Of a stretch of DNA of 64,000 bases, positions 23,091-34,012 are shown one piece after another. The stretch is taken from assembly GCA_001599915.1 (NCBI GenBank), contig BCIG01000003.1, positions 186,001 to 250,000 on the forward strand, read 5' to 3'. The notes beneath the pieces were generated by a model. It made no database searches. It worked only from the letters and a program-made list of their open reading frames with translations, and was not told the origin of the DNA. Numbering within the stretch: position 1 is the stretch's first letter; each line of letters starts with the position of its first letter. Source of the DNA: Symbiotaphrina buchneri (Eukaryota > Ascomycota > Symbiotaphrinales > Symbiotaphrinaceae). Made by a program: the position numbers and the translations under genes.

Positions 23091-25058
23091 TCAGACCACC
23101 GTACCCACGATAGCATCCAAGAGGTCCTCCCATCCCAGGGAACCCCAGTGTCCAAACAAGTCAAGCCAGTCATCGCTGGTAGTGTCCTCGACAACAGGCT
23201 TCCTCCGGGTGAGGGCTTCGCCCCAAGGTCCCTTCGCCTGGAGTCCCTGCCTCTCCCTCCATTCGCGCTCCGCATCCCTCCTAGCCCGCCGGATAACCAC
23301 GTCCTCATCCTCGTTCTTGTACAGATCACACTTATCACATTCCGTGCATTCCTTTCCCGGGTCGGGGCGGAAGTGCTCACAAAAGTGTCTGTAGCTTTCC
23401 TTGCCGATCTCTTTCCGACACACATAGCACATCTGATAGCCGCAGACGCATGTCAACTTGTTGCAACCCGACGCCTTGATGAAGGACAGGTTGCAGCGTG
23501 GACAGGTGCGCTTGATAGCCTCGGCCATGGCACGCTCGACGCTAGCCCGTAACGCGGTATACTCGGATTCGTAGCACACGTGGATGTCGCGCCATTCTTT
23601 GCCGCAGGCCAGGCAGGATGAGCGACCGCAGTCTGGGTTTAGACAATTGAATTTGAGGCCACGACGTCGTCGATGGACCCGCAGGCGTGACCGGTCAACA
23701 ACAGCCAAACAGTAGTTGAGCAGAATCTGGAAAGGCGGGAAGATGATGGTAAGAAAATAAGCTCCGATGATGACCGGTAATATGAACGGCATCATACCCA
23801 GTAAGACGAGTGAGATTAGAAGATGAAGAGCTTTTGTAGGATTTCTCTGTTCTGCACCCATAGTAGGCCACGCGAGGTGTAGTGGAGGGAGCGAGATTTC
23901 GTCCACTTCTGCATACGGGCAAAACGGACATCTCACCACAGGCAACCTGCTCTTGAGGATCCCTTCCTCTGCCATTTTCTCGTTCAGTTTCGCCCATACA
24001 TCCCGCCCACCCTTCTCTTCCCTCAAGGCCCGCTCCACATGTTCACTGGGTATACATCCGTTACAATCCTCGTCCGGCATGGGCGCCAGGCATTTTATAG
24101 ATCCGAGCTCATGCTGAATATTTCTTGCCCATCCTTGGCCAAAGATGGCTTCATTCACTGCCCGGCGTATACATCTGAAACAGATCAAGTGGTTCCCCTC
24201 GGCGCATGCGGAAAGTTGTTCGAAGCTTGTCGACATGAAGCAACATTCGCAGTCGTGCATAGCGTTGCACTCCTCCGCCTCGGCATCGTTCAACTTTACT
24301 GCGTACTTCCAGTCTTGATCCTCTTGCTGTGTTCTCTCTTGAGCCAAAGCAGGTGCAATAATGGTGTCAAATATCTCTCTGTCCAGTTCCACACTCCCTG
24401 TGCGCTTGACAGTAGGGACCATCATCCCGTCCCTGCTGCTCTTTAGCGGTTTATAGATGACCAACGGATGCTGTGCGTCGCCCAGAGTGCCCGACGATTT
24501 CCGTCGAAGCAGAAAACTCGTCACCGTAAACCGCCACGATTTAGAGGATAACTCCGTAAGGGTTGGCCGGGCTCGAGAGTAGGAGTAGTTCTCCTCGGCG
24601 AGGACTGCGTTGATTGTAGATCGTGAAAGACCTCTGAACTCTTCGGAGAGAGCGGTCCTGACGGCCTTCCTGTATTTCTCGTTTCGAAAGCGGTCTTCCA
24701 AACGTACAGCCCTGTCCTGATGCGTTCTGGCCACCTCCGGCCTTTGTATCGTCGCTGTCACTGCTCGCTCGTTGCGTGGAACCGTCCATCTCCCACGAAC
24801 CCACTTCCCTTTCGCCTTCAATAGAGCCTCTGTAACCACCTGAAGTCTACTCTCCTCATCAAATGTACTCAGCATTTCCCGGAACACCTCGACCTGTATA
24901 TCCGGAAAGACCGCAGTGAGAGCTTCAAGAGCGTCATTAAGCGTCCTTAAATCCGGATCTTCCGGTTCGCATGTCGTTAGATAGTCCAGATCACCCGGGT
25001 CCACAGCATCCGAATTCGTTCTGGCACTGGACCGACGTCCAGCCAGAAATGTAGGCAT
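23091..25058 (-). CDS. RBR-type E3 ubiquitin ligase, RNF216/TRIAD3-like, with a hydrophobic segment
   Basis: RING-between-RING E3 ligase; ubiquitin passes from an E2 to a cysteine in RING2 and then to substrate. A single exon encodes 655 residues. An N-terminal CUE/UBA-like stretch (about 38-80: LNDALEALTAVFPDIQVEVFREML) is followed by RING1 (about 265-340, CECCFMS...CIRR...CLAPMPDEDC). The IBR starts CPFC (377-380) and finishes around NCLNPDCGRSSCLACG (471-486). RING2 spans about 519-560 with CPRCNLSFIKASGCNKLTC; its GCNKLTC motif is the region that carries the catalytic cysteine in RBRs. A strongly hydrophobic stretch of about 45 residues (about 409-453) sits between the two IBR halves, so the protein is probably membrane-anchored. 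The tail CEHFRPDPGKECTECDKCDL matches RNF216-type ligases. Confidence 0.92.
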   Translation of the reverse strand: MPTFLAGRRSSARTNSDAVDPGDLDYLTTCEPEDPDLRTLNDALEALTAVFPDIQVEVFREMLSTFDEESRLQVVTEALLKAKGKWVRGRWTVPRNERAVTATIQRPEVARTHQDRAVRLEDRFRNEKYRKAVRTALSEEFRGLSRSTINAVLAEENYSYSRARPTLTELSSKSWRFTVTSFLLRRKSSGTLGDAQHPLVIYKPLKSSRDGMMVPTVKRTGSVELDREIFDTIIAPALAQERTQQEDQDWKYAVKLNDAEAEECNAMHDCECCFMSTSFEQLSACAEGNHLICFRCIRRAVNEAIFGQGWARNIQHELGSIKCLAPMPDEDCNGCIPSEHVERALREEKGGRDVWAKLNEKMAEEGILKSRLPVVRCPFCPYAEVDEISLPPLHLAWPTMGAEQRNPTKALHLLISLVLLGMMPFILPVIIGAYFLTIIFPPFQILLNYCLAVVDRSRLRVHRRRRGLKFNCLNPDCGRSSCLACGKEWRDIHVCYESEYTALRASVERAMAEAIKRTCPRCNLSFIKASGCNKLTCVCGYQMCYVCRKEIGKESYRHFCEHFRPDPGKECTECDKCDLYKNEDEDVVIRRARRDAEREWRERQGLQAKGPWGEALTRRKPVVEDTTSDDWLDLFGHWGSLGWEDLLDAIVGTVV

Positions 25059-25619
25059 GGCTGAACTGGAGCCATCCGATGACGTTGAGTAGGGGGAAGG
25101 AAAGTAAGGCTGACAGGACCATTTGCGGCAGCTTTAAAGCTGCTGTTGGGGAGTTGTTCCGCTGGTCGACCCAAGTGAAATCTGTGTCCGATGGACAAGA
25201 TATAAAACACCCATCTTCAACAAATGGTCCTAGAAGCTCTTGTGTGATGCTGTTGTTGGGTAGGAAATCATCTATCGGAGGGACAGACCCTCAGTGGATC
25301 GCTTCGGCAAGGCAACTCCGCAGCGATGCAACTGAAACTGCGGAGGCAGGGGATATGCGCACCTACAACGAATGCTATTGGCTTGTTTCCTCAAATATAA
25401 GAACCGGTTTGAGCAGAAAGCTACATGATTAGATGATTATTGTCACCAGATATGATGCGCCTATATCATCCTGTTGGCTCCAAGCCTGTAGCGTCTTGCC
25501 TGGTCACGTGCGTAACGCTTGATTACTTATTATATCACCTGCATATTATTTAGTTACTAAGCTATTTGTCACCAAGCACAGGGTGACCCGCGCAATCGAG
25601 TAAACTCCTAGTCCCGTCT
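25059..25619. other. Spacer left of the accessory element
   Basis: 560 bases forming the RBR gene promoter and then AT-rich sequence (about 25430-25580) of unknown origin. No gene. No terminal repeat matching the right side of the accessory region could be found by eye. Confidence 0.4.
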
Positions 25620-25744
25620 CGCCGTGATAAATGCATACCTACTTGATGTACAGAAGGTCGCATCGAACCAGATCTGGTCAGCCCAAGACGTCTGTCCTCC
25701 TTGCAAAGAAAATCAGTATCAAAGAGACTCGTTGTCTAACATCA

Positions 25745-26720
25745 TGGACGGGCGGGCCGCGACCCGTTATAAGGAAAATGTACGAGAAAGCGACTCTTTT
25801 GGCCATATGTGACGAGAGTTCTAAGCACACTTTGGTTCGCCTTTGGATCATTGGAGTCCGTGAATCGTGATAAAAGCTCCTTAAATTGTTTGTACGGGCG
25901 AACAGCATCCTTCAAGCAGTACTCTGCCAAACGCTTCCGACCAGATGACCCATGTTGTACAGCTGTGCAATTCCGTCCGGCCGGGCATCTTCCTTTTCAT
26001 CACCCAGTACCGATGCACTAACGTCACCCAATCTGTAAGGGAATGAGAAGTGCATGCAGAAGCGGTACGCGGTCAATAGATCAACGACCTGCCTACCGCT
26101 TATATCAACTTGGGTGGCATTCCAAGTACCAGCTGCAGCAGGACTCCTATGCTGCGTTTTGAAGGAGGTGGTCTGTCCCGACTCCCAACGTCCTAGGCTC
26201 AGATTGTTGAAGAGATCCAATTTTCTGGTGCGTTTAAGCAGGCATGGCAGGTCAAAGTCCGCAATATTTCATTCTGTTATTATGTGTGGGTCGACTGCTT
26301 TAACAAAATCAACCCATGCGGCCAGCATGGCTTCTTCACTGGCGAACACCAGGACATCGGCATTGTCAATCTTATCACAGTCGCCAAAGGAAAATATAAT
26401 CCTGATGCAGGGAGCTTCTTGCCCGTTGTTCGCAACTATATTTGATATCTCTTCAGCACTGGCCTGTGGGAAGCTACCAGGTTATGCTAGGCATTCAATA
26501 TCGAAGGAGACTACGCGTATGTAAGTCGACGTCTGATATTCAGTGGCGATATATCTCCAAAAGCCGAAACGCTCGATCTGACAGTCGGACACTGGCAGTC
26601 CTACCTGCTCTTGTGTGCGGCTGCGCAATATCCAAGGCCTTTGCGGAACAAGCATTGATTCCAAGTATTTGTAAGGATCGTCTGATGAAAAGCTCTCCGG
26701 CTGGGGAAAGTCTGTCACTA
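25745..26720 (-). pseudogene. Fossil: exonuclease region of a delta-type family-B DNA polymerase
   Basis: Translated fragments resemble the N-terminal and 3'-5' exonuclease domains of DNA polymerase delta. Seen are an Exo I motif (VVSFDIEC near 26500), an Exo II region (NIADFDLPCLLKRTRKL near 26260), a block with GRQVVDLL and LGDEKEDA, and an Exo III region (YCLKDA near 25910). The sequence is far from the host replicative enzyme, which is normally very conserved, so this is not a simple copy of the host gene. The polymerase domain itself is missing here. It carries several breaks and is treated as dead. Nearest relatives could be large DNA-virus polymerases or a transposon-borne enzyme; a degraded host paralogue is less likely. 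Confidence 0.6.
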
Positions 26721-27309
26721 GGAGTAAAACAGACTGTGAGAACTGAATCTATCAGCTGGCGTTCTCAATTGATGTTTTGCTTTCTCTGTGGGCTTACTAT
26801 GGTTGTACCGAATAACGCCATGGCAGCTTTTCCATCTGGTCATCTACAACGTTCGGCTTTCAGTAGCAAGACTTGCAAATCGTTAGAATTGTATGGGATA
26901 GCATGTTGCGGTCTACTCCACGTTGTGGTGATTGCTGGTCTCTGCGCTGTTGTGGCTCCAGATGTGGAACCGACTCTGCTACCAGCTGCAACCGATGTCC
27001 TCGGTATCAAAGGACTGGCAACACCACCAACTGTCCTGCTCTCGGATCGTTCATGTCCATGTCCTCTTGCGAGGAAGGGGGATCTGAAGGGGGCTGACGC
27101 ACGATTAGATATACCCGCTATTCCTGTAAGCGTTTCTGAACATTCGCACACAAGTATATATACTTACGAGCTAGCGCTGCTGCCCCAGGGTCCTGGTCCG
27201 CACTGCAACTCGGTCCTTCCGATCTGCCTAGCCTTGGTACTTTGTTTGATCTCTCTTCTTCGCTCGGGGTCGAGATCGTCCTAGAAGGTGCGGCTGACGA
27301 TGTGGCAAG

Positions 27310-27705
27310 TCAGGCAGCTTGCAACGATGTTATCGATGACTGACGCCCCTGACGGCCTAGTGGAGTTGCTTCCTCGGGTTCCGATGGCAGCGTGGCGGCC
27401 AGGGCTGCTCGTTGAGCAGGATCCGATTGCCGCGTTTCTCCAGTATACCGGCTTGGAGCTCCCATGGATGTGGTAAGTTGTCCAGAAGTCAGTTGCTGAA
27501 GTGCTTGACCTAGTGAAGCTGACTGCTCGGTGGCCCCTGATGCTGTCACTCCTGTTGTGGGTGCGCTCGCTTGTGGGCCGCCTCCTTGACCTGATCCACC
27601 AGATGTGTGAGCTGCTCGAAACCTGCGCTGTCTTTCTCTATTTGCTACTCTCCTGGCTTCCTCTGCCTCTTCCTTGGTCGTATACTTTTTCGGTCTACCT
27701 GCCAT
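27310..27705 (-). CDS. Small basic-region protein of the accessory element
   Basis: An open frame of 131 residues starting with a true ATG (MAGRPKKYTTKEEAEEARR). The first 35 residues are rich in Lys/Arg/Glu and look like a DNA-binding basic region with an AT-hook-like GRPKK start. The rest is a Ser/Gly/Thr/Gln-rich tail. The stretch beyond its end, to about 27150, keeps a protein-like composition and a possible GT-AG intron, so the original protein may have been longer. It is read leftward, upstream of and in the same direction as the polymerase fossil, and divergent from the rightward gene at 28200. Function unknown; nucleic-acid binding is an inference from composition. Confidence 0.45.
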   Translation of the reverse strand: MAGRPKKYTTKEEAEEARRVANRERQRRFRAAHTSGGSGQGGGPQASAPTTGVTASGATEQSASLGQALQQLTSGQLTTSMGAPSRYTGETRQSDPAQRAALAATLPSEPEEATPLGRQGRQSSITSLQAA

Positions 27706-28199
27706 GGTGCGTAAGAATTACTCAAGGTTGGAACTGTACCTAGGCTGGCAAGAAGTTTGGCAGCTGCTGACTCTTAGCTTTGACGTTGAATATACCTACA
27801 AGTGGAGTTTCCTATCATTCACCTGATAGTTTGCTCTCGTGGACGTTGTTAGTCTCACGTTTTACCCCCGCTCTTCTGCACGCTGTTGCAATTCACCAAT
27901 CGAAATATCCCCTCATCCGTTCTTTGTTTGCTCTCTGCTGGATCCACAATATTCGAATTCACCAAGGCGGGGCGAAGCAATCCTGGGCGTCTGTCCGATG
28001 TAGCATATAATGGGCCTTCCTGCCTGTTGAGCTTTTATCTTTACACTACTTCTGTCTACATTGAATTGCCAGATTCAACAAACCCCCATTTGGTAGCTGT
28101 TTTCCAAGCTTTCAACAATTCATCTCTTATTCTCCACATTCATATGTGTAGAACTGTTCCGTCTTCACCTTCACTTTTGACCGACAGACACCCATCACG
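27706..28199. other. Divergent spacer inside the accessory element
   Basis: 494 bases between the start of the basic-region protein (leftward) and the first ATG of the GIY-YIG-like gene (rightward), placed where a bidirectional promoter would be expected. A pyrimidine-rich section lies just before 28200. Confidence 0.4.
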
Positions 28200-31100
28200 A
28201 TGGCTTCTAGGAGGTCTCTTACGCAGGAAGACAGAGTCTTCAAGGATAAGTATCAGAAGACCATACAGCGTGCCAAGACGCACTCTCAGTATGTTTCGTC
28301 GACGCCCGACCCACCAAACTCCAGTGCTCTGGCGTCCCGCATATTTGATCAAGTCGTTCAAAATTTGACTTCAGGGCATCTAATGTCCTCGGGTATCACA
28401 AGAAACCGCTTTTCCACAATACTACCAGTTCAAACAAGCAGTCTTAATCAAAGAAAGGTTTTCGCAGCACTCGTGCAGTCTCCGATGCTGGTGGCCCCGC
28501 AAGACTTGGGCAAGATCATGAATCTTGAGATTTCTTCTATAACATCACCTCCAACTGCGGAAGGAGAGACCCATTTCTACGTGCGGTCGTGGACTTTTGC
28601 TGATGATGAGATTAAAAACGTCATCAACCACATGGAAAGAGAAGACATGACCTTCGATGAGACGACTGAGTGGACAAATGTTGTAAATCTCAACCGCTCT
28701 CAGCAGCCTCTCACAGTTCGGTACATTGGGATGGTACAGGGACCTCGCCGCCCGTGGGATAGGTACTACAAAGATCTCCATTCGAAATCACGCGGTATGC
28801 TCAATGAGTTCCTTGCGGCTGTGGAGGTGGTTGCGCCCTGGGTTGCAGATGCCGTCCAGGTCCAAAGATTCATGACTCTATCCATCCCCAAAGAGTTTGG
28901 TCAAGCCTTCATGGACGAGACGGAGAGGTTCTTGATCGAGCTTTTCGGTCATAGAAGCTTGCTGAATCGCCAGCGTGGTGGATACTATGCCGTGTATCTG
29001 CCAACAGTTGCAGACGCCTCACTCTTCCACAATCTGCGGACGAACTTCTATGACCGTTTTGCATATTAAGCTCGTCGCCCTCCGGGTCAGATGATTGAAG
29101 CCCTTTCCGCATGGGCTCAAGCCACTCAGGATTTCGCGATGCAACATCCTGGAACGACGGGCACCGCACGCCATGTTTATACCGACAAGCTTAGAGATGT
29201 GGTTAATGAACAGACCACGCCTCTACAATTCAGGGGTCTTACATTACTGGTTTTCAACTTGAAGGATGTAACTCTTGCAGATTACAGGGAGGAAGCTTCT
29301 TTTTTTGGCGGTAATAGTCGCTCTGCCGCCCTGACAAAGGACTTCATTCGTAGGCTTGCACAGGCGGAGGCCGAGAGACTTGGTCTTCCACTATCCGACT
29401 CCGCTTTCGACGAAAAGCTTTTTACCATTGTGAATCTTTGGCCTTGGCTGAAGCACGAGGACAAAGCTCAGACGAGGGTAAGAATCTGCTCCAAATGTGA
29501 TTATGTCTTTAACACAATGCAGGAAATGTTGCGCCGATACTACGAAATCGTTAGACCGCTGATAGCGGTCTCCTACGGGCGCGATGTGACAAGCGTTATA
29601 AAAGCGGACTTTAACCATGAATTTGGCTCCCCTGCCACTTCATTTACCGTCGAGGTTGGAATTCCAACAATTCAGTACTACAGCAGTGGAGAACGTGGTA
29701 AATTTGAAGCTGAAGAGGATGCTTTTATATGCATGCCCCATATCCACCCCGGTCGAGACAAGTACAGTACGCAGGACGCACGTATGCGACGTGTCCTTGA
29801 CCTATGCATGCAAGCCACATTCCTTCTCGGCAGTTTGGGTCACGGATATAGAAAAGGCCAATGTGGAAATGCACCTGCCTGTCGAGACTCGACATCAGTA
29901 CTGCGAGGAAATCCCCAGACGCTTCAATGCTTCTATGAGGTCGACAGGGCTACACCAAGCTCTGGAAGGGGCCAAGAAAGAACTGAGAACCTATCTGTCT
30001 CAGCAACGAGGCAGAATGCCTTCAGAGGACGTACGCAGATATCTCGATAAGGCTGGACGAGACAGGCTCGCAACGTTGGGACGCGCCGAAGGGGCTCCCA
30101 ATTCTACTAAGCGGCAAGCACAGCTGCAGGAACTATGGGATGCCAAGTTCCCTGACCTGTTTCTCTCCGTGCAGCATGCACCACATGCAAAGTCCGAATG
30201 GATGGCTGATCTGGCAGGAATCCCGGAGGGTATCATCTACGGTTTGTACGTGTGGTTCAAGCTGCCCATGGACAATGACTTCGCCGCTCTGTTGAAGCCA
30301 TACCGCCCGAAAGACGCAGCTCAAGGCGATACGAAATGGCTCCAAGTGAGCCAAAAGCGCCAGGACGCCGTGGTAGAGTGCGGAGCACGTCTGATGATGA
30401 GATATGGCCAAGAGATGGCCGCAAGGCGACCCAGACGCGCTTATAGGATGTTCCCTTCCGAATGGTATGAAACACACAGGATCAATGGAACCGAGATAGG
30501 AATCCATGCGCTTGGAAAGATGATAATACGTTGGAAACGTGGCGATGGGGCGCAGCTAAGCTTGCGAATGAACGCTCCAGTCCATGCTATTCCGCAGTCA
30601 GCGGAGGAAAGACGGTATCTGTTTTTCACCCATGAGGGCATAGAAATCAGGGACGAAAAGGACCAAGTCTTTCTCGGCTTCAAGAGCAAGTCTGGCCCGA
30701 CTTTTCCAAAGGCCATATTCCTGAGCACGGAACCTGCAATGGAACTGGTAAATCTGTGGGAAGCTGTGACCGGGCAAAAGTTTCAAGAAACCATCGAAGG
30801 GTCTGTGAAGTATGACAAGACGAAAGGCGCGGCGTTTATCAAGTCCCAGCATAAGATCGCTCCGACGCAGAACTCTCCACCCCGCCGTCAAGATGCAAAC
30901 TGGCTGCTAAATGAGTTCTTGAACCATCGATTTCCTGATGGCGGGGTCTTCCGAACCGCTCCGCAGGTTAGGGTCCGTAGCTCAACAGAGGATCTTCAAG
31001 CTTTTGTGGCCTTCCTCAAGCGTCCGGAGTATAGCGATCATCCATATACCCGCGATTGGCTTGCCGAATTCGATAGAGACGACCCTCGCGTCAAGGAACT

Positions 31101-31233
31101 GTCGAGAAATTTGGCTTTCTTGAGACATTGCGTCCAGAAGAAGAAGTATAGCTCCTACCGCAATAGCGAAGGGCGGATGGCTACGACTGCTGAGACCACT
31201 TATGAACTGGGTCCTAGAAAGGATGGGTGGTAG
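28200..31233 (+). pseudogene. Fossil: long GIY-YIG-like gene of unknown family
   Basis: About 3 kb of protein-like sequence starting MASRRSLTQEDRVFKDKYQ and ending ELGPRKDGW. Roughly 500 bases in (28700-28980) it has a GIY-YIG-like signature: VRYIGMVQGPRRPWDRYYKDL, then an acidic-residue/LIELFG segment and LLNRQRGG, matching the YIG...R...E...N order of that nuclease fold. Later segments include GIPTIQYYSS and MPHIHPGRDKYSTQDARMRRVLDLCMQATFLL, then a section with SVQHAPHAKSEWMADLAGIPEGIIYGL and a C-terminal part with FLRHCVQKKKYSSYR. None belongs to a domain I can name. It has about two breaks and otherwise long open stretches, so it died later than the neighbouring polymerase fossil or was under selection longer. 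Confidence 0.5.
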
Positions 31234-32543
31234 AACAGGCCGAGCCGATGTCATTTTGCCCCTCGTCCAGCGGTCTGGTATTCTGGGTGTGATGCTGTCG
31301 ATACTATTCAGGCAAGCGTTTGGCGCTCTTTTTGATTTAGTAGTCATCACCGCTTTCCTAGGGCGCATACAATAGAGGGATATGAGTCTAAAAGTGCTCA
31401 ACGACCGTGCAAAACTTTCCGGTCTTTCTACAGGTGCAGTCAGCCTCTTCGCCGTCTTACAGGCACATTGTCCCCATGGCTTAAAGCCCATTAGTGAGCT
31501 CCAAAGCTGCGAAATAGATGTGATTTGCTTCGAACCCATGGGTCTCCTGCGTAATGAAGTGAGGCACATGCGTCTACACCTTAGAAATCTCTAGTAGCTT
31601 AGGCCATCCCACAGGTTGCCTAGAGGTTGTTGCCATCTGATTTGTGCTTGAGAAGGGCGGCATTCCGTAACTGGACGGTCAATCTCAGTAATACCTCGTA
31701 CCACTATAGTCCCGTTTACAGAGTATTTGCTGAGGTTGAAGGGTTGGACGGGGCTCCTATCTCTTACATAAATCTGTAGAGTATTTATATCACCAAGCTT
31801 CAAGTAGACTAAATCTGTATCCTCGTTAATAGGTCGAAGAAAAGTCTGTCTCAAGGGCTAGTATAGACCCCGCCTACATTCAACAAATAAACTCCCGAAA
31901 TGAACACTTATGATGCTGTCGATGCGTAGGAACTTTACTTAACATATCCTGATATACGTTTTAGTGTTATCGGCGAAGCCAGGCAAGACCGTCAAGGTTT
32001 ATAGGCTAAAATAAGCTAGAACTGTGCAAACTTCGGGCAATTGGTCTAGTGGTGTAGGTACCTCTCCAACAAAATGAATTAGAACCACCTTCTCATGCCT
32101 TCTCAGATGATTGTCGGCAAGTATTTCCGTCCGTTTAAACCTTCCGAATTACATTCTGACTGTTTCCTCAGCTTCGGGCTATGCCTCTGCATCTCAGATG
32201 CCGTGAATGTGACAGGTCTCGAGTTCGATCCTCGAATTGCCCCTCATTTTTTGGCTTTTGGAACAACCCAACTACCTTTAATACATGATTTTTGCACTTC
32301 CATCTTAATTCTGGATTGAACGTGAAAGTCCGGAATAATAACATTGTGGAACATTGATGGGGTTGATGGCCATTCGAGCGCACTTAGACTAAGAGTTGTG
32401 ATCCAGAGCGCGTCGCGTCAGCCTAGATTTACTCAACAACAACCACGCCTACTCCCATTGAAAAGCTCGGAGAACCGCCTACTCCATAACGTCTATCCGC
32501 CTGTAGCTCCACTCCTTTTAACAGTAAGGCGTTGTGGCTGAAG
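31234..32543. other. Spacer right of the element: AT-rich relics and a tRNA-like sequence
   Basis: 1.3 kb without a confirmed gene. 31234-31590 has mixed composition with a small plus-strand open frame (31382-31594, starting ATG). 31591-31854 holds an 87-codon minus-strand open stretch without an ATG start. 31860-32330 is AT-rich and contains the split tRNA-like sequence. The Fpg promoter lies at the right end. Confidence 0.4.
32035..32243 (+). tRNA. tRNA-like sequence split by an insert (probable tRNA relic)
   Basis: The 5' part GGGCAATTGGTCTAGTGGT (from 32035) has an acceptor-stem arm and a good A-box. The 3' part has a T-arm with TCGAG/CTCGA stem and TTCGATC loop (B-box) and then ATTGCCCC at 32236-32243, which pairs with the 5' arm over 7-8 bases. 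Ends look most like a tRNA-Pro. A-box and B-box lie about 165 bases apart and no proper anticodon stem can be drawn, so either a very long intron or an insertion splits it. Probably non-functional. Confidence 0.4.
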
Positions 32544-34012
32544 ATGCCTGAAATCGGGGAGGTCGCTCGTCTAGTGCATTTCCTAAGAAAGCATCTTGGT
32601 GGGAAGACCATCAAATCTGTGCAAGTCCAAGATGACCCCATTGTGTACGGCAAGGCGGGCACGACAGCTGAAGAGTTCAAGAAAGCAATGACTGGGAAGA
32701 AGGTGGTTGATGCACAACAACAGGGCAAATATTTCTGGTATGCCCCTATCTACGCTCGTTATTACACCCCTGTTACAAGAGTGCGACTCCAAAACGGCAT
32801 GCTGAGCGTAACAATAGGCTTGTGATGTCTTCTCCACCTCACCCAGGTCAGTTAAGCAAATAATGTTCCGGCAGTGGGTTACTGATTTGCGTTATAGTCC
32901 TTCACAATTCTATGACGGGCTGGATCCACCTATCAAACGAGTTTACAGGCTACAGAACAGAAAAGGCGGAAAGCTCCAAAGACGAAAGCTGGCCCCCAAG
33001 ATTCTGGAAATTCATCTTGGAGACGGATGATCCTAATGTCAAGGCTGCATTTATAGACGCACGTCGGTTGGGAAGAATCCGCCTCGTTGACTGTGCAGCC
33101 GATGCAATCCGCAAGACTACTCCATTGAAGGAAAACGGTCCTGATCCTGTCATTGACAAGGATATCTTCACCAAGGACTGGTTCTTTTCCAAAGCCAAGG
33201 GAAAGAAAGTGCCAGTCAAGGCATTCTTACTTGACCAAAGCATCATCAGTGGCATCGGCAACTGGGTCGGGTAAGTACTTTGACATCCCATATTCTCTCG
33301 TCGTCACGTGTTTCTTCATTTGCTCTTCCATTTGGTTACTGAGTCTATATCCCGAACCTTCTATGTCCTCTGCTTCTTCCATGCGGCCTAGCAAAACACA
33401 ATCCCCGAATTCTGACATGATCACAGGGACGAAATCCTCTACAATGCTAGTATACATCCTGAACAGTACACCAACAGTCTCAGCGATGAACAACTCTCCA
33501 AACTCTACGACTCGATTGTAGACGTGTGCCGGATAGCCGTCGAATCCCTGGCAGATCCCAGCCAATTCCCTGAAGACTGGCTCATGAAGTACCGCTGGGG
33601 CAAAGGCAAGAAAGGAAACACGCTGCCTAATGGTGAGAAGATAGAATTCCTCACGGTTGGTGGCCGCACCAGTGCAGTTGTCCCATCGAGGCAGAAGAAG
33701 ACTGGCCCTGTGGCTGCAGATGTGGGAGGAAATGGTAAAGAGACAAAGGGAGCAAAAGGAAAGAAAGTCAAGGCTGAGCACTCCAATGGCGTAAAGAAAG
33801 AGGCGGAAGATGACGATGACGAACCATCGGAGAAGACAAAGGTCGCCCGGACAAAGCGCAAGTCTACTGCTTCGGTGAAGGAGGAACAGAAGGAAGAGGA
33901 CAATACTCCGAAGAAGGCAAAGACAGCTAATTCCCCGATCAAAAAGGCGCAGAAGAAAGTTGGAGATGAGACGCCTAGGCGACGCTCTGGGAGGATTAGC
34001 GGTGGAAGATAG
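32544..34012 (+). CDS. Formamidopyrimidine-DNA glycosylase (Fpg/MutM family)
   Basis: Bifunctional DNA glycosylase/AP lyase removing oxidised purines. Exons 32544-32737, 32818-32846, 32898-33270 and 33427-34012, 393 residues. MPEIGEV gives the catalytic N-terminal proline and glutamate of the family. QQQGKYFW joined to LVMSSPPHP and then HNSMTGWIHLS is the canonical beta-strand/loop block; LLDQSIISGIGNWVGDEILYNASIHPEQ is the helix-two-turn-helix. As in plant and fungal members, a zinc finger is not visible; ending residues GEKIEFLTVGGRTSAVVPSRQKK form the zincless finger. A lysine/glutamate-rich, probably nuclear tail of about 100 residues follows, ending RRRSGRISGGR. Confidence 0.95.

Follow-up and report, generated by a model that had tools for sequence, protein, structure and literature searches.

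A 64,000-nucleotide stretch of the Symbiotaphrina buchneri genome (contig BCIG01000003.1; C3:186001-250000 in our numbering, referred to below as the window) holds a broken gene on its plus strand and, beside it on the minus strand, the remnant of a DNA polymerase gene. We consider it somewhat probable that the plus-strand gene is a recently broken member of a dispersed fungal family of nuclease-like mobile genes and that the polymerase is a truncated neighbor of Pol delta lineage. The nuclease-like family is the more solid find. The polymerase remnant is a genuine oddity, and a composite element uniting the two, as proposed in a preliminary description of this DNA, is not established.

The plus-strand gene and its dispersed family

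Two features define the plus-strand gene:

28200..31250, plus strand: nearly complete but broken member of an undescribed gene family of fungi, carrying one in-frame stop and one frame change (from the relatives P0002 and P0001)
28563..29009, plus strand: GIY-YIG-like nuclease domain with conserved Y, YIG, R, E, and N positions (from a three-sequence alignment, with weak fold support)

A protein database search with 29602-31233 yielded two sequences at an expectation value (E) of ≤0.1 among 6355 candidates, namely, P0001, an open JGI protein of 641 amino acids (aa; E 9e-76), and P0002, the open and uncharacterized 905-aa protein SCUP515_06140 of Seiridium cupressi (E 4e-39). P0002 matches nearly the whole window gene (28284-29840 at 37% and 29887-30309 at 29%, E 5e-108; 30787-31215 at 46%, E 1e-29) and P0001 only its C-terminal half (29604-29828 and 29839-31215), while a stretch of ~160 aa common to the window gene and P0001 is missing from P0002. 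These alignments bear out the earlier impression of some 3 kb of protein-like sequence with a YIG...R...E...N pattern. In the window copy, a TAA at 29067 interrupts the frame, and the frame itself shifts at around 29.83-29.84 kb. A TAG at ~31231, just inside the end of a match that continues for a few codons more, may be the natural end of the gene or further damage. Over the ~800 codons aligned to P0002 (29-46% identity), there is a single internal stop, compared with the ~28 stops per 850 codons that neutral drift to 35% identity would leave. Stops are thus far fewer than expected under neutrality, which suggests that the gene was under selection until recently.

The scanned members of the family matched nothing in Pfam or NCBIfam and nothing below E 0.12 in PHROGs. 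In PDB, P0002 had no match and the open frame of the relative on contig C11 (see below) had one, at E 1.7; with the same frame as the query, none of 7993 protein database candidates reached E ≤0.001. The 53 pattern stretches from prokaryotic genomes included no relative of P0002, viral contigs scanned by pattern yielded no confirmed relative of the plus-strand gene, and no DNA match was found among plasmids. Nor did we recognize a published description of such an element in the literature, searched at the level of listings. Judged by its sequence, the gene belongs to a coding family that is dispersed, was conserved until recently, is undescribed, and appears new.

The nuclease-like character of the family comes from its N-terminal domain, in which all five GIY-YIG catalytic positions are kept in three sequences, the other two being 38% and 32% identical to the window. 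The roles of these residues follow I-TevI. The catalytic Y, Y.G, R, E, and N all fall within the 32 columns that are invariant in the three sequences, and shuffling of the invariant residues reproduced the pattern in 36 of 200,000 shuffles, with spacing limits that were set post hoc. Likewise, when a model of the domain was compared with 992 aligned chains (VIA-align), the two best rows were the I-TevI catalytic domain, a weak fold match. The structure model of the whole of P0002 was too low in confidence for use (mean predicted local distance difference test score [pLDDT], 39.6). PF01541, the Pfam family for GIY-YIG, gave no match above its cut-off in the family, and its only row at E ≤1 in the whole genome was at C32:110259.

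In the genome that we examined (23.4 Mb in 82 contigs), five further decayed loci of the family were found, making six with the window copy:

C11:34880-37248: 25-33% aa identity to the window copy; open frame of 776 aa, then broken
C12:612937-613074: 46% identity over 47 aa; found by one of six family queries
C17:33745-33852: 75-77% aa identity to the window copy
C27:87427-87573: 70-72% aa identity to the window copy
C77:11386-11517: 64-65% aa identity to the window copy

Four of the six loci are short pieces only. The open frame of the C11 relative (L023:467-2797, minus strand) ends before the C-terminal part. The C77 piece reaches the end of an 11,518-base contig that, by our own reading of the list of open reading frames, carries retrotransposon-like frames; part of this copy may be missing from the assembly. 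A weak row at C4:208220 (E 0.019) was excluded as a family locus.

This distribution looks like that of a dispersed mobile family. Around the window segment, we found no element boundaries, convincing terminal repeats, or shared ends, and there is no repeat of at least 25 nucleotides across 20-40 kb of the window, shorter pairs looking like chance. One inverted pair, 25482-25503 and 31979-32000 (22 nucleotides, 77%), does flank the segment; it is 1 of 15 pairs in 7.7 kb, and we took it as chance.

That no ends were found would fit a second account, in which the family is an ordinary nonmobile accessory one, for example, a genome defense nuclease, that has degenerated here next to an unrelated old pseudogene of POL3 lineage. 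The C11 relative, with its long open frame and no mobile-type neighbors recognized in the frame lists, would also be at home in this account, as would the 10 window frames that we scanned (of 24 long ones), all of which are ordinary genes, including those for Rad4, HAUS6, thymidylate synthase, and an Ndt80-type factor. Against it, the pattern is repeat-like, with six dispersed sites in 23.4 Mb, four of them short pieces and one at the end of a small contig with retrotransposon-like frames, and we regard this account as unlikely.

Under the reading that we prefer, the plus-strand protein would have been ~900-1000 aa long, with an N-terminal GIY-YIG-type nuclease-like domain followed by a long body without a recognized fold, and its most likely role would have been that of principal protein in a mobile DNA element. 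Target DNA would be cut or nicked by the GIY-YIG domain, the long body would keep hold of the DNA of the element itself, and repair or copying at the break would produce new copies.

The polymerase remnant

The minus strand carries the following features:

25742..26748, minus strand: decayed exonuclease region of a family-B DNA polymerase of Pol delta type, split into open pieces by two stops and a frame change (from PF03104 and tblastn with the host POL3)
26494..26502, minus strand: Exo I (D-I-E), from frame reading
26251..26268, minus strand: Exo II (N-I-A-D-F-D), from frame reading
25907..25921, minus strand: Exo III (Y-C-L-K-D), from frame reading

Exo I, Exo II, and Exo III, which had been noticed in the preliminary description, are thus all present and in order, and PF03104 matches with an E value of 1.2e-24 at C3:212062-212538 (window 26062-26538, minus strand), with one TGA and one TAA inside the match. 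Two pieces of the remnant pass Pfam singly (E 1.8e-8, and E 5.7e-5 at 23.1 bits with a cut-off of 23). PF03104 occurs at five places in the genome; four are with polymerase genes positive for PF00136 (on C2, C7, C9, and C11), and the fifth is the window. PF00136, the polymerase (palm) domain, has eight places in the genome, none of them in the window, and the polymerase part of the host POL3 has no match in the window except one row at E 0.16 elsewhere in it. Only the exonuclease half of the polymerase remains, and the gene part for the C-terminal cysteine modules of replicative Pol delta is not present. Antisense to part of the remnant runs a stop-free stretch of 292 aa (26406-27284, plus strand), for which gene status has no support.

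In tblastn, the host POL3 (on C2) is 33% identical to the remnant over 225 aa at 26589-25954 (E 1e-27) and aligns in a second frame at 25939-25784 (31% over 52 aa). In a comparison over 280 aa, the host POL3 is 63% identical to the yeast and 56% identical to the human Pol delta and 31-36% identical to the five nearest polymerases on viral contigs, which we took for giant-virus types. The remnant had been called too divergent to be the host's replicative enzyme, and the contrast between 33% and the 63% shared by host and yeast upholds that judgment.

The damage is lighter than this divergence would lead one to expect. In a neutral simulation that started from the host POL3 and ignored insertions and deletions, decay to 33% identity left 3.4% stops (95% range, 1.5-5.8%), or ~7 per 212 codons, whereas 2 stops were observed in the 212 codons aligned in one frame between the remnant and POL3, in an alignment that favors open stretches. 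A third stop (25912-25914) lies beyond the frame change and is left out of the two counted. Because stops are few against the neutral expectation, most of the divergence probably took place while the protein worked.

These numbers bear directly on another alternative, in which the minus strand would hold no more than a duplicated and decayed host POL3. The best matches are indeed to Pol delta, and when the remnant was scored piece by piece (exoA to exoD) against 111 viral frames, the host polymerases, and yeast and human stretches, the host POL3 was the best-scoring Pol delta for exoA and exoB. For exoC and, narrowly, exoD, in contrast, the yeast enzyme scored better. With identity and stop counts strongly disfavoring it as well, a host POL3 duplicate appears highly unlikely. 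Matches in PDB agree with the assignment to Pol delta; for two of three pieces, the four best are Pol delta chains, with yeast ahead of human, and for the third, weak in PDB, Pol delta stands behind a designed protein (E 0.16).

A large-DNA-virus origin had also been suggested. In such an account, the segment would be an endogenized piece of a Nucleocytoviricota-like virus with a PolB and a GIY-YIG nuclease. Some precedent comes from the PolB-bearing viral insertions reported for the fungus Rhizophagus irregularis in the source at PMC10640383. In addition, two of the three piece trees (70, 118, and 84 columns, with few rows) group the remnant with viral rows and outside the host, yeast, and human group, although with weak support (83 for exoB and 68 for exoC); the exoD tree places it beside human with a support of 32. 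Cellular Pol delta nevertheless outscored all 111 viral frames for all four pieces. The viral sample was thin, with few frames near POL3 (a scan with a POL3-zeta alignment gave 4 loci, one pattern scan at least 120 stretches, and another none); within it, single-sequence pattern scans of viral contigs gave no confirmed relative, whether of the plus-strand gene or of exoB. No viral marker genes were recognized in the frames listed or scanned (10 of 24 long ones in the scan). We therefore regard a viral origin as very improbable. Rather, these comparisons indicate that the remnant is of Pol delta lineage and is no recent copy of POL3.

Adjacency of the two arms

The surroundings of the two genes are as follows:

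23091..25133, minus strand: flanking host gene with an IBR-type frame (its Pfam match to IBR falls short of the cut-off)
27310..27705, minus strand: basic open frame (GRPKK..., ~131 aa from its ATG in a 135-aa frame), from openness only
27706..28199, no strand: spacer of ~0.5 kb between the two divergent frames, from the first ATG on either side
32490..32825, plus strand: flanking host gene, N-terminal part of a formamidopyrimidine-DNA glycosylase (PF01149, E 4.3e-16)

The 7.4-kb gap between the two host-type frames (IBR-like and Fpg-type) contains both the polymerase remnant and the plus-strand gene. The described arrangement of two arms that diverge around a 0.5-kb spacer is correct, with ATGs at ~27705 (minus strand, basic frame) and ~28200 (plus strand), as counted from frame positions, and so is the description of both as broken, since stops and frame changes are found in the polymerase part as well as in the plus-strand gene. 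An 18-nucleotide inverted pair (78%; 27699-27716 and 28217-28234, ~500 nucleotides apart) lies beside the starts of both divergent frames and may be either a control site common to the two or a product of chance. Rfam gave no match at gathering score in 22-34 kb of the window.

It is this arrangement that suggests a composite, self-copying integrative element in which a Pol delta-type polymerase, a basic DNA-binding frame, and a GIY-YIG-like protein worked together, the window holding a truncated fossil of it. The adjacency and divergence of the two genes across a short spacer within a single gap are in its favor, as is a polymerase that is no recent POL3 copy and drifted under constraint. Against it stand the other copies of the family. 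Host polymerases found nothing at E ≤0.1 near the five other loci, in stretches of 20 kb (C11), 18 kb (C27), and 10 kb each (C12, C17, and C77). Of the polymerase pieces, one (25678-25911, minus strand) did give a row ~7 kb from the C11 copy (28% over 54 aa, E 0.041), which we took as chance. The plus-strand gene thus occurs in this genome without a polymerase neighbor in these stretches, a situation that the preliminary description had named as refuting its reading, though the copies concerned are decayed too; the same gene pair is found at no second locus, and the common end points that were to define the element did not appear. Apart from POL3, the basic frame, exoB, and exoC are each single; exoB and exoC match nothing in the genome beyond the window and, distantly, POL3, and in a search of low sensitivity none of 104 candidates qualified as a relative of exoC at E ≤0.001. 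Furthermore, damage per kilobase is higher in the polymerase part than in the plus-strand gene. On balance, we find the composite element doubtful, although we give it some credence. That it would be an undescribed fungal self-copying element with polymerase, basic protein, and GIY-YIG nuclease, the other loci being pieces that have lost the polymerase arm, seems rather unlikely.

In the composite reading, the product of the basic frame would be an AT-hook-like protein. The frame has no Pfam match, and a genome search returns only the frame itself. With openness as its sole support, its status as a gene is unproven.

For the pairing of polymerase and nuclease, then, the evidence is their adjacency at one locus, and the five others contradict it as far as decayed copies can. 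They argue that the polymerase is a separate or an optional part. In the reading that we prefer, the divergent neighbor of the plus-strand gene is the truncated exonuclease half of a Pol delta-lineage polymerase that left POL3 long ago while functional and decayed later. The polymerase arm might conceivably have served as the element's copying enzyme, a role that we consider less probable than that of the nuclease.

Comparison with known systems

The spacing within the GIY-YIG-like domain differs from that of I-TevI; the residues that separate the first Y from the YIG tyrosine number 48 in the plus-strand gene and 11 in I-TevI. The family also differs from homing endonucleases of the I-TevI type in being nuclear rather than located in a mitochondrial intron, in its gene of ~900-1000 aa, and in having no Pfam match. 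Fungal genomes would gain a class of nuclease-bearing elements from a nuclear, repeat-like gene family that carries a GIY-YIG signature and matches nothing in Pfam, NCBIfam, or PHROGs.

With POL3/POLD1, of the Delta-like clade of family B, the remnant shares Exo I, II, and III and the flanking sequence. Its Exo I and Exo III each contain a cysteine, and Kazlauskas et al. (2020; PMC7544198) give these cysteines as features of the Delta-like clade. In contrast to POL3/POLD1, it is a broken exonuclease half, only distantly similar to the host POL3 and outside the host, yeast, and human group in two of three weak trees. The Nucleocytoviricota PolB (EukVir2 in PMC7544198, and the R. irregularis insertion as reported in PMC10640383) likewise provides a divergent Delta-like polymerase in a fungal genome. 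The remnant differs in its lower scores with viral than with cellular Pol delta and in lacking recognized viral marker neighbors. Even if separate from any element, it would be odd, as the trace of a once functional Pol delta-lineage enzyme that differed from POL3 and was present in this fungus or close to it.

Self-synthesizing transposons such as Polintons and casposons and the GIY-YIG Penelope-like elements embody the same general idea of an element-borne polymerase combined with a nuclease. To our knowledge, none of their polymerases is of Pol delta type, or they are reverse transcriptases. The window segment differs further from these elements in having no recognized terminal repeats, integrase, or capsid genes. 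If the polymerase were nonetheless part of the element, fungi would possess a DNA element supplied with a replicative-type polymerase of its own, and such a composite would bear on the long-debated traffic between eukaryotic polymerases, viruses, and mobile elements.
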